Shown here: one piece after another, positions 6,074 to 23,603 of the stretch
Layout: every line of letters starts with the position of its first letter
Position numbering within the stretch: position 1 is the stretch's first letter
Source of the DNA: Endomychus coccineus
Lineage: Eukaryota; Arthropoda; Insecta; Coleoptera; Endomychidae
Direction: 5' to 3'
NCBI GenBank assembly: GCA_958510875.1
Contig: OY294070.1
Span: forward strand, 21,939,631-22,003,630
DNA length: 64,000 nucleotides
Made by a program: the position numbers and the translations under genes
The notes under the pieces: model-generated
What the model was told of the DNA's origin: nothing
The model's database searches: none
Seen by the model: the letters and a program-made list of their open reading frames with translations, nothing else

Positions 6074-7373
6074 CGCCACTGACTTTTTTGGAAGCAAAAA
6101 TTATTTTTAGAATCCTTGTTCAATTTACAACACAGAAAGGCTCCTCACTGTTTTTCGTTTGACACATCGTTTGCCAGTGAAAAATTAAAATACCTGATTT
6201 CTGAAAAACGATTAAACAAAAACGAAAATAAGAAATTTAATTGATGGCAACAACAACAAATAAATAAATGAAAGAAAATTAAAGGTAAAATCACAAAAAT
6301 TGCTCGAAAAGTAGTCCACCCACCTCAATACATTTTCGACATCTACTCAATAACGCATTTACTGCAGCAGATACTTCATGCGGATTGTGCCGCATATCAT
6401 TGCAGACTTGCTGAATTCTTAAAACTAAATCTTCCCTTGTTAATAAAAAGTTGCGAGTTCAACCTTGGGGTGGGAAATGTGGACCACAAACATTAACATG
6501 AATAACGCCCAACGAAACATTCACGGAAAATTCATTTTGAAACGATCTTGGCCGAATTCCCCGAGGTTTCTGATATGCCCAAATATGAGTATTATGGTAA
6601 TTTGTTACCCCACGTCTGGTAAAAGAGGATTCATCCGTCCAAAGAATCTTATGGAAAAAGTCAGGATTTTCTTCCATTGAGTTTAAAAGCCACTGGCAAA
6701 ATCTTATTCTCTTTTCAGCATCACCAGGATGCAAATCCTGAACAGGCTGTAGATGATATGCATGTCTGTGGCCATCGTGTAGTGTTCGTAATATTGTAGA
6801 CTTCGGTATGTGAAGGTTCTGAGCTGCCTCCCGAGAGCTCAGCCTCGAATTGTTATCAAAAGTACGAAGTATACGATTATTCTGAATATTATATCGACGG
6901 CTTCTGTTCCGTTGTTTATTAACACGCAGGCCAAAGTTACGAAAATTCTGATGAAAACGCGAGCATCTGGAACTCTTCTATTTGGATAGTGTCTACGATA
7001 TTCACGAACTGCCGCTTCTGAATTTCCATCTCAAAATCCGTAGCAAGAATGTATTCGTTGTTAGAAAAAAGCATGATTCAGATTAATACTTACGCAACAC
7101 TAATAACAATGTTAACAATAACTCGAAATTAAATTACCTGTCATAATTCAATCAACTGTCATAATAAAATGAAAGAACTCTTACAGTAGTAGTTGTTTTT
7201 TTAATGGCCTACTACGACAGATTGAAATTTGTCTGAATTCCAGTTGCTTAAAGAATTTTAATTTTTTACTGGCAAACGATGTGTCAAACAGAAAAAAGTA
7301 ATGAGACTTATTTTGTTGTAAATTAAACATGGATTCTAGAAATAATTTTGGCTTCTAAAAAAATCAGTGAAGT
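6074..7373 (-). mobile_element. Tc1/mariner-superfamily element with ~125-bp inverted repeats
   Basis: Left (about 6074-6192) and right (about 7255-7373) sequences are inverted repeats of each other over about 120 bp. Both carry gtttgacacatcgtttgcca-type sequence. They enclose a minus-strand transposase remnant (6300-6900). The outermost ends, and hence any TA duplication, could not be fixed with confidence. Confidence 0.75.
6300..6900 (-). pseudogene. Tc1-like transposase, internally deleted
   Basis: Reading the minus strand, a helix-turn-helix region (NNSRLSSREAAQNLHIPKST) leads in frame into HPGDAEKRIRFCQWLLNSME. The first DDE block follows as ILWTDESSFTRRG, then YHNTHIWAYQKP and FSVNVSLGVI. 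After CGPHFPPQG a stop occurs and the frame resumes in the C-terminal tail (EDLVLRIQQVCNDM to CIEVGGLLFEQFL). The part carrying the second and third catalytic aspartates is missing, so the enzyme is dead. Upstream of about 6900 the frame is broken by stops. Confidence 0.8.
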
Positions 7374-8353
7374 AGTTTTAAAAATATTATTAAATCTGTT
7401 TTTTTTATAAAAATTTTGACACTCTGTATCTTTGTAACGAAGCATTTTTCGAATATGTTTATAGTACAAACTGATATTATTTTGTAGTTATCTGTCTGCC
7501 TGTAAAGCTTCCGCTTTCGAAACTGGACCATTCTGTATATCATACCATTTTACGATTTATTGTATAAATGCCCAAAACTGGAAAAATTGTAGTTAGCCAC
7601 TCCTGGAATCAATCCATCGATAAGATGAAGTTACTAATAAAGGTATACATAGAGATGGGAGTCTGATAGAATTGTAGTCCAATTAGCATATAAGTGAGTG
7701 ACAAGGAAGTTATCCTTTTGATCAAAGTACCAAGGAATGTTGTTTGTTGATAATGTTAATGCAAAAATCAAAACAAGCATACCTGTAATTAAGCGCAGAT
7801 ATTTGAATTAATCAAATCGTAATATTCAAACGGAACGATCAATTATAGCTCATTAATTAAGCTGGAGGGAGTGTTTAGGAAATTAATCATAATTGACAGG
7901 CCTCGCGATAGTAACGTCTCGTACAAACAAAATGATTAACGCGAATTGAACGACTGTTTTTGCAGTCAAAATAGACATTCAAGTGAGCAACAATTAACGT
8001 GAAGACATTGCGATACAGATGTTGGAATGGAATGAATGATCTGCAAATGTAAGACGTCTAGCCGACAGTTTAAGCAGTTCAAGCAACTACCCTTTTCATC
8101 CGTCGGTGTCAATCAAAACTTATTTAATGATAACTAGAGCTCAGGAAATATGCACTTAAAAAACCTTAAAATATGCACAAAAACAAGTTGAACTAAAATA
8201 TGTTTTCATGCATTTAAATATGAATTTATAAAATTATTGTATTGAAGGTATTTTATTTATCATATGCTAAAGTCACAAAAAATGTTTATTAAAACTACTA
8301 TTAAGCACCTATGGGTACTTACTTATTACTTGTTATTGCTTATTTTCTATTAC
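7374..8353. other. No gene recognised
   Basis: 7400-7560 resembles the tail of an unidentified DNA element (gtatctttgtaacgaagc motif). 7850-8010 is higher-complexity sequence with TAAT-core motifs. No coding region was recognised. Confidence 0.35.
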
Positions 8354-8555: not shown

Positions 8556-9639
8556 TTACAGTAATTGTTGGAAATGTCCCCCGTTTTGTTCGATGCACAG
8601 GTTGACGCGCATCCTCATGCTGTGAAAACCGTTTTGCAGCATTTCTGGCGTTATGGTTGCATATTGCTGAACTATTCTTTGTTGAAGTTCTTGCAAATTA
8701 TTTATCGGAGTTGCAAAAATCTTGTTTTTTAAGTAAGGAAATATAAAATAGTCCATAATTGTCAAACAAGGTGATCTCGGAGGGAACTCAACTTCTGTAT
8801 CAAACTTATCAGCCGGTCATCAAAAAACTCGCGGAGAAAAGCAATATTTTCTCGTGTAGTATGTGATGTAGCACACCGTCATGCTGGAAATAAACGTACC
8901 GAAGTTCATCATCATTTAACTGTTGCACAAATTCAGCCAAAGAGTTGTGTCTGTACCTTTCTGCGTTGACGGTGAAATCGAAAAAAATTGGCCCAATTAT
9001 TCTTCTGCGAGAAACTGCCATCCAAACACCGATTTTTTGAGCATGTAGTGGCGATTCAGTAAATACATGAGGGTTACCGTTGCTCCACATTCGCATATTT
9101 TGAGAATTGATGTATCCCGAAAGGTGGAACCACGCTTCGTCAGAAAAAAAAGTTAAGTCCAGAAGATCGTCGTTCATTAAATTATTGCCAAACCAATGGC
9201 AGTAAGCAAGGCGTCTGGGGTGGTCTGCAGGCAGAATAGCTTGATGTGCTTGCATCTTATATGGATGCATGTTCAAGTCTTTCTTTAAAATCTTCTGACA
9301 TGTTCCATAAGAAAGTCCAATTTCCTGAGAAAGACGTTTCAAAGGTTTTGCAGGCTCTTCTTCCATACGTTGACGAACGTCATTGACAATTTCTTCTGTA
9401 CGAACTCTTGGTCTACCAGCACCTTTTTTATGAGTCACACAACCAGTTTCGCGAAACACTTCAGCACAATTTGTAAGGCACGCATAAAAATTGTCCGGTA
9501 ATATTGCCACGTTTGAGAAGTGCTCTCGAAAATTGTCCAAACACATACGTTGACTGTATTGCCAATTTCCATTAACTAGCGCACCCGTTCGAAAATAGGC
9601 TTCAATCATGAAAATTTTGTGCTGTGTGGTAAGAGGCAT
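8556..9639 (-). pseudogene. DDE transposase with N-terminal HTH (DUF4817-like)
   Basis: It starts MPLTTQHKIFMIEAYFRTGA, matching the DUF4817-type HTH found at the N-terminus of many insect Tc1/mariner-related transposases. A second HTH-like region follows (PLKRLSQEIGLSYGTCQKIL). The DDE domain shows FFSDEAWFHLSGYINSQN (first D), IGVWMAVSRRRIIGPIFF and YFQHDG (second D). At about 8816 a frameshift ends the long frame. The shifted frame continues PPRSPCLTIMDYF to the end at 8556 (VNLCIEQNGGHFQQLL). In the SPxLT motif the third catalytic D is replaced by C, so both the frameshift and the active site are broken. Total length (~360 aa) is close to normal for the family. Confidence 0.9.
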
Positions 9640-9689
9640 GATTCAAAAACTGGATTAGAAAATTTCAGCACAATGACTTAACAGATTCT

Positions 9690-10194: not shown

Positions 10195-10932
10195 TATTGG
10201 TTCTGATAAAAACGAAACTAGTTATAAAGCAAGGTTAGTTGCAAAAGGTTATAGTCAGCAATATGGTTATGATATTGTGAGACCTATGCTCCTGTAGAAA
10301 ATATAATAACAATTAGAATCTTGTTGATTATGGCCGTTCAGAAGAATTTTTCTATCTTTCAAATGGATTTAAAAACTGCATTTCTTCATGGGAAATTAGA
10401 TGAAGATATCTAAATGAGTCAACCTCCTGCTTTCACAGATGATTCTGACACGGTATGTAAATTGAATAAATCTTTGTATGAATTAAAACAATCACCACGT
10501 TGTTGGTATAAACGTTTTGACTGTGTGATGATGAGAGAGAATTTTTGCAGGAGTGAATCAGATAATTGTAATTATATCAAGTTTTTTGGGAATATCATTT
10601 TATATCTTTTAGTATTTGTAGATGATATTCTTCTAGTGGGAAACTCTACTGAGGAAATGAAAAAAATAAAAAATATTCTCAACAACGAGTTCAAAATAAA
10701 GTGTTTGGAAAACATTGATATTTTTCCGGGAATTAAAATCATTTTAGATATAAATAATCAATTAATTAAATTGAATCAAAGTCATTACATTTCCAAACTT
10801 CTCCAAAAATTCTATATGATGAATTGTAATGCTGCAAAAACTCCAATAGAGGTCAATTTGAAATTTGGAAATGAAATAAGACCATTATCAAAATATCCTT
10901 GCAAAGAAGTTTTAGGATGTTTAATATCTTGA
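10195..10932 (+). pseudogene. Copia-like reverse transcriptase
   Basis: The plus strand reads SYKARLVAKGYSQQYGYDI, then after a one-base frameshift ETYAPVENIITIRI, QMDLKTAFLHGKLDEDI and, after a TAA in place of Tyr, MSQPPAFTDDSDTVCKLNKS. Next come LYELKQSPRCWYKRFD and the catalytic block LLVFVDDILLVGNS, which keeps the paired aspartates (positions about 10617-10628). NQSHYISKLLQKF and the TPIE region follow. This covers most of the Ty1/Copia RT. RNase H and the LTRs are absent. The frame ends with a stop at 10930. Confidence 0.9.
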
Positions 10933-12224: not shown

Positions 12225-12815
12225 TCCGAGCTTTAATTATCATTATTAAGTGTATTTCTCATTACTTAGTGAATCCCCAGACAAAACTCTTTAACGCTTG
12301 CATTAATACTGGCACATTTCCAAAATATTTGAAACTATCTAAAAGTATTACCGATACATATAAAAGGTTCAAAAAATGAGTTGAATAACATTAGACCTAT
12401 GTCTAATAATTGGAAAGATATTAGAAAAATATCTAACCTGTCAAATTATAGATCACTTCGAGGATAATAATATTTTCACGGAAGAACTATTTGGGTTTCA
12501 AAAAAACAAATCCACAACATTTGTGCATTTTGGCTCAATTTTCTGTGATCTCACAAAAGCATTCGATTGTGTTTCTACCGATATTCTGATGCCTAAACTG
12601 AACAGTTTTAAAATTTCTGAAGCATCATTGTCTTTGATACGGTCTTATTTATCTGGTAGAACGCAAGTTGTCTATATGCATTCTCCAAACTCGTCTAGAG
12701 TGCCGATTACCTTAGGGGTACCTCAAGGCTCCATACTTGGACCTGTACTCTCTTTAATATACATTAATGATATACCGTTACAAGTTCCTGAAGGCAAACT
12801 AATCCTATCGTTATA
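12225..12815 (+). pseudogene. Jockey-like LINE reverse transcriptase fragment
   Basis: Pieces in shifting frames match LINE RT in order. TKLFNACINTGTFPKYLKLS, then FEDNNIFTEELFGFQKNKST, then the first catalytic block IFCDLTKAFDCVSTDIL, SLIRSYLSGRTQVVY and TLGVPQGSILGPVLSLIYIN. The frame from 12523 to 12816 is open, but the expected FADD block never follows because the fragment ends where the tyrosine recombinase starts. There are several frameshifts upstream. Confidence 0.85.
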
Positions 12816-12819
12816 GCAA

Positions 12820-20751: not shown

Positions 20752-21695
20752 TCTTTTGTTGCGGAGGTGAAGAAAACCCTTTATAAGGAGGTTCTGAGCC
20801 TTTGAGTCTCAAGGTCTACTGTGAGAGTCACCATTCCAGGCATACTCACTAAAAACTTCACCCCCTTTGTAGGCTTGTCTGGCTATTGCCTCCGGTGACA
20901 CTTAGGCCTGCTGGCCCATTGTATCTCGCCTATGTTTTGTTTCTTTACGGTATCCACTCGAATATTTTTGTACCTTGTACGAGTTTGTACAAGTCCTTTA
21001 CAGGGTGGGAACTGAATAATTCTGGTTCGCCGTTAGGCTTTCCCAAGATTGATTGTCTTTTGCGATCCAGTGCCTCGTATTTACACAGTATGTGTGTCAC
21101 TGTTTCTGTATCCTTACCGCAAAGTCTGTATTTCTCCCCATGTTCAGTTTCTGGAATTTCTTCCCAGTATTATTTGTGGTTTTCCATGATCCAGTCTTCC
21201 ACAGACCTTCGTGCTGTACGTTTTGGTACCCTCGTGGTCTGTTCTGGATCAGGAGCGTTCTCCGACCCTCTTTTTACAAGTTCGTCGCCTTTTTTCATTA
21301 CCTGTGGTTCCCTGATGTCCCGACACCCAAATCAGCCTAACGCGGTTTCGGTCTGCCAGTATTTCAAGTTCTTTTTTGTATGTCCATACCAGACGGGAGG
21401 TCACTTCCTGACTTCTCATTGCCTTGAGTGCAGTCTGACTGTCTGTCAATATGTGGATCTGCTCATCATCGATGGCTCTCCGATTGTTTTCCTTCACACA
21501 TTGGAGCATTGCATATACCTCTGCTTGGAAGACAGAGGTGTGTCTACCCAATGAATAGCTCAAGCCAGTCTTTGGGTTTCTTGAATATACTTCTGCACCT
21601 GCACCTTTTTCAGTCTTAGACTCGTCTATATACCAGATATTTTCCTGTAGAATGTCGCCCAGGTTTGTATGTTCCTATTCAGTCCTTTCTGGTAT
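20752..21695 (-). pseudogene. R1/I-like LINE: RNase H domain and 3' region
   Basis: The minus strand reads IWYIDESKTEKGAGAEVYSR (first catalytic D block; the usual DGS is DES), SYSLGRHTSVFQAEVYAMLQ (E block), HILTDSQTALKAMRS (second D) and RLIWVSGHQGTTGNEK (His block). All four RNase H catalytic positions are thus visible. Downstream, 20935-20752 is the 3' region, whose sequence is strikingly similar to the 3' half of the SINE at 24545. The upstream part continues beyond the inserted CXC element at 23604-23850. The long plus-strand open frame here is antisense noise. Confidence 0.85.
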
Positions 21696-23600
21696 TAGTA
21701 CAGTCAAATTAGTCGAAAAAAAGGGGATAGATCGAAAAAATTGCGGGTAAGCTGGATTTTTGATATGTTGTTACTGGTGGTCAAAAACGTAAAATGCCAA
21801 GTTGGCGTATCCCCACCTGTTTCGGAATCGCCGCCATCTTGAAAAAATTTTGGATTCCATTTATCTCGCTTCCCGTTAGTCGGAGGAAAAAAAGTATAAG
21901 GACAAAAAATGTTCATTTTCAGTTTTTCTACATTTCTTGTTCGGGTAAAACTCTCTGTAGTTACTTCCCAAAAAAATAGAGGTCGCCAAAGTCACCAAAA
22001 ATCCGATTTTTCACTTTTTGACCTTCAAAAATTAATGTAATACGAAAAATTCTAAATGAAAGTTGTTTATCTTAAAAAAATGTACAAAAAATATATTCAT
22101 AGTTTATAACAATTTCTCAATTGTTTCTGAGATATAGCGTCTCAAAGTCAGGTGCGCGCCAAAAATTAGCTAAATGTCTGTAGTGAATACATTGTGTTTT
22201 TGACAATATAGTCAAGTTATGTGTATTTGAACTCCTGGTAAATTTAATAACCATATTAAATTTTTTTTTACATTCCATTTGTTTATTTGCATTTTTACAT
22301 GCCGGAATCGATGTACGATTCTCTTTATTAATTTTTAATTCTGAATGTTTTCACTATCCATTCCGCGAATAATCTGTGAATAGTGAACAATGTCAAAGCA
22401 ATTATGTGCTCAATGGAAGATCGCAAAAAATTGTTTAAATAATCAATTTACAACATTTTTGAAAGCAAATGCGGTTTTTACATTTTTTAGAATTGTTTTT
22501 GATAATATTGTATTGGGGAATAAAGGTTAAGTATGTTCAACATTTTGATCTGAAAAAACAGAAGGAATATGAAATAAAATGTTATTTATACTCACTTTTT
22601 GCTCCACGTTGTACAGTTGCATTCATTTTCGTTCATCCGTGAATAAGATACGAAGAAGCGTGTTTGAAAAATTCCAAAAAAATCGAAAAATACCAAAAGA
22701 GGAATTCAAGGTAATAATTTTTGAAGGATTGTATGTTAATTGCACATATACATTTATTTTACATCAAAACACGTTGTTTCAGAACAAAAACCATATTCAA
22801 CTTAAACGTCTTTTTTTTTTTGGCGTTTCTTTTTCTTCGTGTACATCCTCGCCAAAAACACTATCATCTCCCTCCGACATGGATTCCTCTGATTGTACGT
22901 TACGTTGCTCTTGTTCGGATCTTTCTGTTGCGTCGTCTTCCCATAATGTTCCTCCGACTTGAGACGGCGATTCCTCGTATAAATCTTCTTCGTCCGGCTC
23001 GATCATTAGTTCTGGCTTATTGTCACAGTTTTTGCCTTCACAGTTTTTGCAAATGACGGAACAATGAAGACCGGCTTTTCGGCACCCACAAGAAGAACTG
23101 CAATTTTTCGTACATTTGCAAGAAACTAGGTTGAGTAAAGTAGGGGGAGCGCACCTGACTTTGAGACGCTATATCTCAGAAACAATTGAGAAATTGTTAT
23201 AAACTATGAATATATTTTTTGTACATTTTTTTAAGATAAACAACTTTCATTTAGAATTTTTCGTATTACATTAATTTTTGAAGGTCAAAAAGTGAAAAAT
23301 CGGATTTTTGGTGACTTTGGCGACCTCTATTTTTTTGGGAAGTAACTACAGAGAGTTTTACCCGAACAAGAAATGTAGAAAAACTGAAAATGAACATTTT
23401 TTGTCCTTATACTTTTTTTCCTCCGACTAACGGGAAGCGAGATAAATGGAATCCAAAATTTTTTCAAGATGGCGGCGATTCCGAAACAGGTGGGGATACG
23501 CCAACTTGGCATTTTACGTTTTTGACCACCAGTAACAACATATCAAAAATCCAGCTTACCCGCAATTTTTTCGATCTCAAATCCTAATTTGACTGTACTA
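21696..23600 (-). mobile_element. 1.9-kb element with ~455-bp terminal inverted repeats and a CXC-motif gene
   Basis: Left arm 21696-22157 and right arm about 23149-23600 are inverted and nearly identical, differing mainly in the first ~30 bp. The ends read TAGTACAGTCAAATTAG. The flanks TAT (21693-21695 and 23601-23603) could be a 3-bp target duplication; a TA duplication with slightly shorter ends is also possible. It interrupts the minus-strand LINE on both sides. The ~1-kb interior has no recognisable transposase but carries a short minus-strand CXC gene. Arm similarity points to a recent insertion or strong arm homogenisation. I cannot assign the superfamily. Confidence 0.88.
22797..23168 (-). 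CDS. Tesmin/TSO1-like CXC-motif protein fragment with NLS
   Basis: The open frame begins after a TAG at 23169-23171 inside the right inverted repeat. It reads APPTLLNLVSCKCTKNCSSS, CGCRKAGLHCSVICKNCEGK, NCDNKPEL, then an acidic tail (MIEPDEEDLYEESPSQVGG to HEEKETPKKKRRLS) and a stop. The Cys spacing matches one CXC half-domain, a zinc-binding DNA-binding fold in Tesmin, TSO1 and LIN54. PKKKRR is a nuclear localisation signal. Only the C-terminal 123 codons are present and the first ATG is at 23006, downstream of the CXC motif. This looks like the last exon of a longer protein, or the stub left after internal deletion. Confidence 0.75.
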   Translation of the reverse strand, partial: RLKVRCAPPTLLNLVSCKCTKNCSSSCGCRKAGLHCSVICKNCEGKNCDNKPELMIEPDEEDLYEESPSQVGGTLWEDDATERSEQEQRNVQSEESMSEGDDSVFGEDVHEEKETPKKKRRLS

Positions 23601-23603
23601 TAT

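Follow-up and report, generated by a model that had tools for sequence, protein, structure and literature searches.

The Academ superfamily of DNA transposons and its AcademX lineage are attributed to Kapitonov and Jurka in 2010 and to Kojima in 2020. Academ elements encode an XPG-kind nuclease, and their proteins have been described with a cysteine-rich finger. To our knowledge, these transposons have been little studied, and why a transposase should contain an XPG-kind nuclease is an open question. CACTA, PIF/Harbinger and Zator elements likewise make short target-site duplications (TSDs), of 2-3 bp. One paper gives duplications of 3-4 bp for AcademX and 9-10 bp for AcademH and ties them to the encoded helicase and nuclease (PMC10045372); two others report 1,097 homogeneous copies of Academ elements in Bemisia tabaci (PMC9143410) and long Academ elements in bivalves, with a mean of 5,565 bp (PMC10294476). 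Here, we analysed a 64,000-nt stretch of DNA from the beetle Endomychus coccineus (the window; C5:21939631-22003630) and searched the 906-Mb genome. The window contains a 1,905-bp element at 21696-23600, which we regard, with a probability of about 0.88, as non-autonomous and as derived, by internal deletion, from a 7.7-kb Academ-type transposon of the AcademX lineage that has been very recently active here. The original prediction for this locus, made from the window alone, had proposed that it is a non-autonomous or remnant representative of DNA transposons whose full-length protein terminates in a CXC domain; full-length copies in the same genome bear out a non-autonomous member and such a cysteine-rich terminus. 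It had also found no named superfamily for the element and considered it the best candidate here for something undescribed, which is probably wrong: the XPG/FEN1-like nuclease and the 3-bp TSD fit Academ, lineage AcademX, and the family is probably a fresh member of a known, little-studied transposon type rather than an undescribed superfamily.

Both outer termini of the element consist of TAGTACAGTCAAATTAG; the left terminal inverted repeat (21696-22160, plus strand) starts with TAGTACAGTCAAATTAG, and the right one (23146-23600, minus strand), delimited by arm complementarity, ends with CTAATTTGACTGTACTA. Comparison of the flanks gave TAT as the TSD, with its left copy at 21693-21695 and its right copy at 23601-23603. 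The predicted near-identical inverted arms span 432 nt each (21729-22160 and 23146-23577); BLAST counts 431 of the 432 nt as complementary, with the single mismatch at the inner edge, and a repeat finder scores the same arms as 100% complementary. Beyond the common 17-nt terminus, the arms are unlike each other over their outermost ~30 bp. The insertion into a long interspersed nuclear element (LINE), also predicted, was confirmed by an RNase H frame at the flank (21252-21674, minus strand; PF00075, E 6.4e-9). When the element and one TAT are removed in silico, this frame runs on upstream in phase, with two stops that flank the join at a distance of about 26 codons from each other; the LINE nature of the upstream part was judged by reading.

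Within the element, the 123-codon frame with an acidic tail and PKKKRR is present as described, at 22797-23168 on the minus strand, with nine cysteines in a CXC-like spacing (CxCx3Cx3CxCx6Cx3Cx2Cx4C). No ATG lies upstream of the cysteine block, and the first 5-6 residues are encoded by the inverted arm. A genome search with P0007, a 983-aa relative from Bemisia tabaci, gave at least 52 matches (47 of 3,894 candidates scored), including two stop-free 1,447-aa frames that directly adjoin arm matches. The longer copies sharing both arms, for which the original prediction had proposed to look, are thus two in number. The one at C4:464147-471867 was read through; it is 7,721 bp long with terminal repeats of about 435 bp (97% identity) and the TSD TAT/TAT. 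The other, at C5:44266597-44274241, is 7,645 bp long with the TSD TGA/TGA and was read at its two ends, its 1,447-aa frame being known from the P0007 search alone. The last 117 residues of the C4 parent's frame (P0019) are identical to the window frame (117/117); the window frame is therefore the remnant of a gene, the cut-off tail of a transposase, and most likely yields no protein of its own. The whole window element corresponds to parent positions 1-1456 (99.7%) joined to 7272-7721 (98.0%) at a junction sharing GCG (23146-23151), with about 5.8 kb of the parent missing. The intervening 22161-22796 (minus strand), contiguous with positions 466-1101 of the full-length copy, comprises the parent gene's 3' non-coding region as well as subterminal sequence, including a possible poly(A) signal, AATAAA, read at 22753-22758 (minus strand). 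A small possible first exon (L031:188-217, MSVCLICKKT followed by GTAAGT) lies next to the inner edge of the parent's 5' terminal repeat; its phase is mismatched with the acceptor ahead of the main frame, so that a further exon may lie between them.

The exact 17-nt terminus occurs 79 times in the genome (41 forward and 38 reverse), whereas its reversed control has 0 matches, and the ends of the window arms are therefore not a product of chance. Paired by position from the match list, the termini form 37 convergent elements and 5 single ends; 34 of these are 887-3,118 bp long, two measure 7,721 and 7,645 bp, and one measures 10,963 bp. The arm search suggested by the original prediction returned at least 41 matches for the left arm (40 of 78 candidates scored), and among those listed 20 are 100% identical over 455 bp, 12 of these 20 with the full score. 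We read 22 short copies besides that of the window, picked as best arm matches; for 11 of the 37 pairs, the evidence is a length and an arm match only. An exact 3-bp flank match was found in all 23 short copies read, the window included, and an exact 3-bp duplication in 25 of the 26 copies, short, full-length and the 10,963-bp span, for which both flanks were read. The 1.9-kb form accounts by length for 13 of the 37 pairs (1,903-1,910 bp). Its 13 copies differ from their consensus by a mean of 0.065% substitutions, the window copy, L009 and L017 being identical to it, and all 13 contain the cysteine block. Many independent sites thus hold near-identical copies. The remaining short copies are further deletion forms, one of which (L021) has an inverted interior piece. 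Because 7 of the 23 copies read lack an intact cysteine block, yet carry proper 3-bp duplications, the block is dispensable in cis for mobility. The shortest copy, L030 (C1:10036689-10037575, 887 bp), is a near-perfect palindrome of almost just the two arms with a clean 3-bp duplication. L035/L036 (C5:7077900-7088950), which covers the 10,963-bp span, is a broken derivative with an unrelated interior, in which a coiled-coil-like frame (GHKMEAQIIKLLESLNLK...) is present twice as an inverted pair.

We filed the family under Academ, lineage AcademX, because of its XPG/FEN1-like nuclease and its 3-bp duplications. In the protein of the relatives, an XPG/FEN1/Exo1-like nuclease precedes a conserved C-terminal region and the nine-cysteine block, and the nuclease fold was matched in the predicted model of one relative. 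The family's protein has the XPG-type nuclease of Academ/AcademX, upstream of the CXC-like block, where the original prediction had proposed to look for a nuclease or integrase domain. The conserved VTFDQP and IEQTLM supply a candidate D and E; the fold of that part is unmatched. Alignments A2 and A4 exclude P0015, the middle of which is out of register, and P0001 and P0016-P0018 are unaligned. The TSD of 3 bp lies within the 3-4 bp of AcademX, and the several-kb length of the element is a further likeness, whereas the ~435-bp inverted repeats and the very young swarm of deletion derivatives distinguish this family. AcademH belongs to the same superfamily by name; it has a helicase and a 9-10 bp TSD, unlike the element here. 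Its TSD type was not seen, the longest matching duplication being 3 bp in 23 of 23 short copies (lengths 1-8 tested, none at 4-8; none at 9-10 in the printed flanks), and no helicase was found in the 1,447-aa main frame by Pfam at E<=1, a search that did not cover the 5' end of the gene. CACTA, PIF/Harbinger and Zator were dropped because the parent protein carries an XPG-type nuclease, with no direct comparison made.

Whether the cysteine block is of the Tesmin/TSO1 type is less clear. The nine cysteines stand in a CXC-like spacing, but the TCR model (PF03638) does not match the window frame even at E<=1, nor P0019 at that threshold, and it is not among the 18 Pfam families listed for the 14 A1 members. 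Pfam otherwise gave a sub-threshold chance match alone for the window frame (VESA1_N, E 0.099), and a PDB search gave no match at E<=1. Foldseek with the predicted model of the frame returned 8 weak matches, seven PRC2/EZH chains and LIN54 (each E 2.1-3.4). The label thus stands on the cysteine spacing and weak fold matches, without a Pfam match. The canonical Tesmin/TSO1 spacing differs slightly from that of the window frame, and LIN54 inserts a tyrosine, placed ahead of its fourth cysteine, into the DNA minor groove. LIN54/Tesmin/TSO1 and the pre-SET CXC of EZH1/2 share with the block nine cysteines in almost equal spacing; in contrast to them, there is here a single block rather than two, and the tyrosine is found in 0 of the 15 sequences compared. 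The original prediction had also suggested that the CXC domain may bind the ends of the element. We consider it a tentative and rather doubtful idea that the nine-cysteine tail is a putative CXC/pre-SET-type zinc cluster that recognises the long inverted repeats of its own element, possibly sharing its origin with the LIN54/EZH CXC modules; our literature searches found no paper on such end recognition by XPG-nuclease transposases.

Several points weigh against assignment to a recently active AcademX family. Academ membership rests on architecture and TSD rather than on a tree or an alignment with reference Academ sequences. For the parent's 1,447-aa frame Pfam gives nothing at E<=1, and for the relatives just sub-threshold NYN, XPG_I and 5_3_exonuc_N matches. 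The sequence-only match to Exo1 is weak (E 0.012, or 0.066 with the parent included), and in the parent-included search a surface protein and designed proteins come next (E 0.14-0.44). The DDE/D catalytic triad is a putative one. The sampled copies lean young because they were picked as best arm matches, and the 10,963-bp span (C5:7077942-7088904) is flanked by TAA on the left and TTG on the right, without a matching duplication; it may consist of two pieces or be a rearranged copy. The silence of Pfam and the missing reference alignment, together with 18 relatives of which 14 are nameless and none is named Academ or transposase, would also suit an undescribed superfamily that is merely like Academ in its XPG-like nuclease and 3-bp duplications. 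We judge this unlikely, as nuclease and TSD agree with the AcademX description in PMC10045372, and Academ is annotated, according to PMC9143410, in the very species of P0007.

The CXC frame is thus very probably part of a known named family, an outcome that the original prediction had listed against itself. Judged by the window alone, one would take the frame for a host CXC gene, and the block also occurs in gene models of Phaedon (P0001) and Aromia (P0017), as would be expected if inverted repeats of the foldback type had enclosed a captured piece of a host gene; this is scarcely credible, since the block is the C-terminus of a long frame in a full-length copy with the same ends. A host CXC gene is refuted by the identical C-terminus of that frame, and a foldback element without a parent is ruled out by the same copy. 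In the two beetle models, from Phaedon cochleariae and Aromia moschata, an Academ-like tail is fused with other domains (DUF4806 and, going by the name, adenylate cyclase), by either chimeric annotation or gene capture. Another explanation would be that the short element is kept for a small repressor or end-binding protein made from the CXC frame, like the KP product of the P element. Retention of the block in 13 of 13 copies of the commonest size class is what it would entail, but amplification of one deletion product accounts for the retention, the window frame has no ATG ahead of the block, and the 7 copies without an intact block have proper duplications, which makes this explanation very improbable.

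For a deletion derivative of an AcademX transposon, the transposase from the full-length copies would act in trans on the ends common to the short copies, and the short form may have arisen through incomplete repair following excision. Internal deletions by incomplete repair are known for P, hAT and Tc1 elements, and their derivatives similarly keep the ends, lose the interior at short microhomology and have one form amplified; the difference is that the parent enzyme here is Academ-type. Strand transfer would fall to a DDE/D catalytic domain situated ahead of the nuclease, while the cysteine block could be a zinc-bound tail that binds DNA or protein. Two full-length copies and 34 same-ended short copies (by length), many of them near-identical, make this genome a natural test bed for transposition in trans and for what the nuclease and the cysteine tail contribute. 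The locus also illustrates that what appears as a CXC-like frame in an insect-like genome may be a fragment of a transposase.

Other Academ-like sequences were observed in the genome. A second family, 42-43% identical to P0007, has ten stop-free matches among those listed, with frames of 962-1,499 aa (for example, C2:78906401-78909205 and C5:73848760-73851564), and a third group has four among the matches listed, with 35% identity and 953-aa frames; the genome may thus harbour intact members of several Academ-like families. Decayed Academ-like frames lie at C5:22057814-22059286, about 54 kb past the end of the window. The window itself contains, besides the element, a Tc3-type helix-turn-helix frame below the Pfam cut-off (6459-6977, minus strand), a 277-aa frame that looks by eye like a transposase and has no Pfam match (8809-9642, minus strand), and Pfam matches to reverse transcriptases of the Copia type (RVT_2; 10414-10932, plus strand) and of a LINE-like type (RVT_1; 12385-12816, plus strand).
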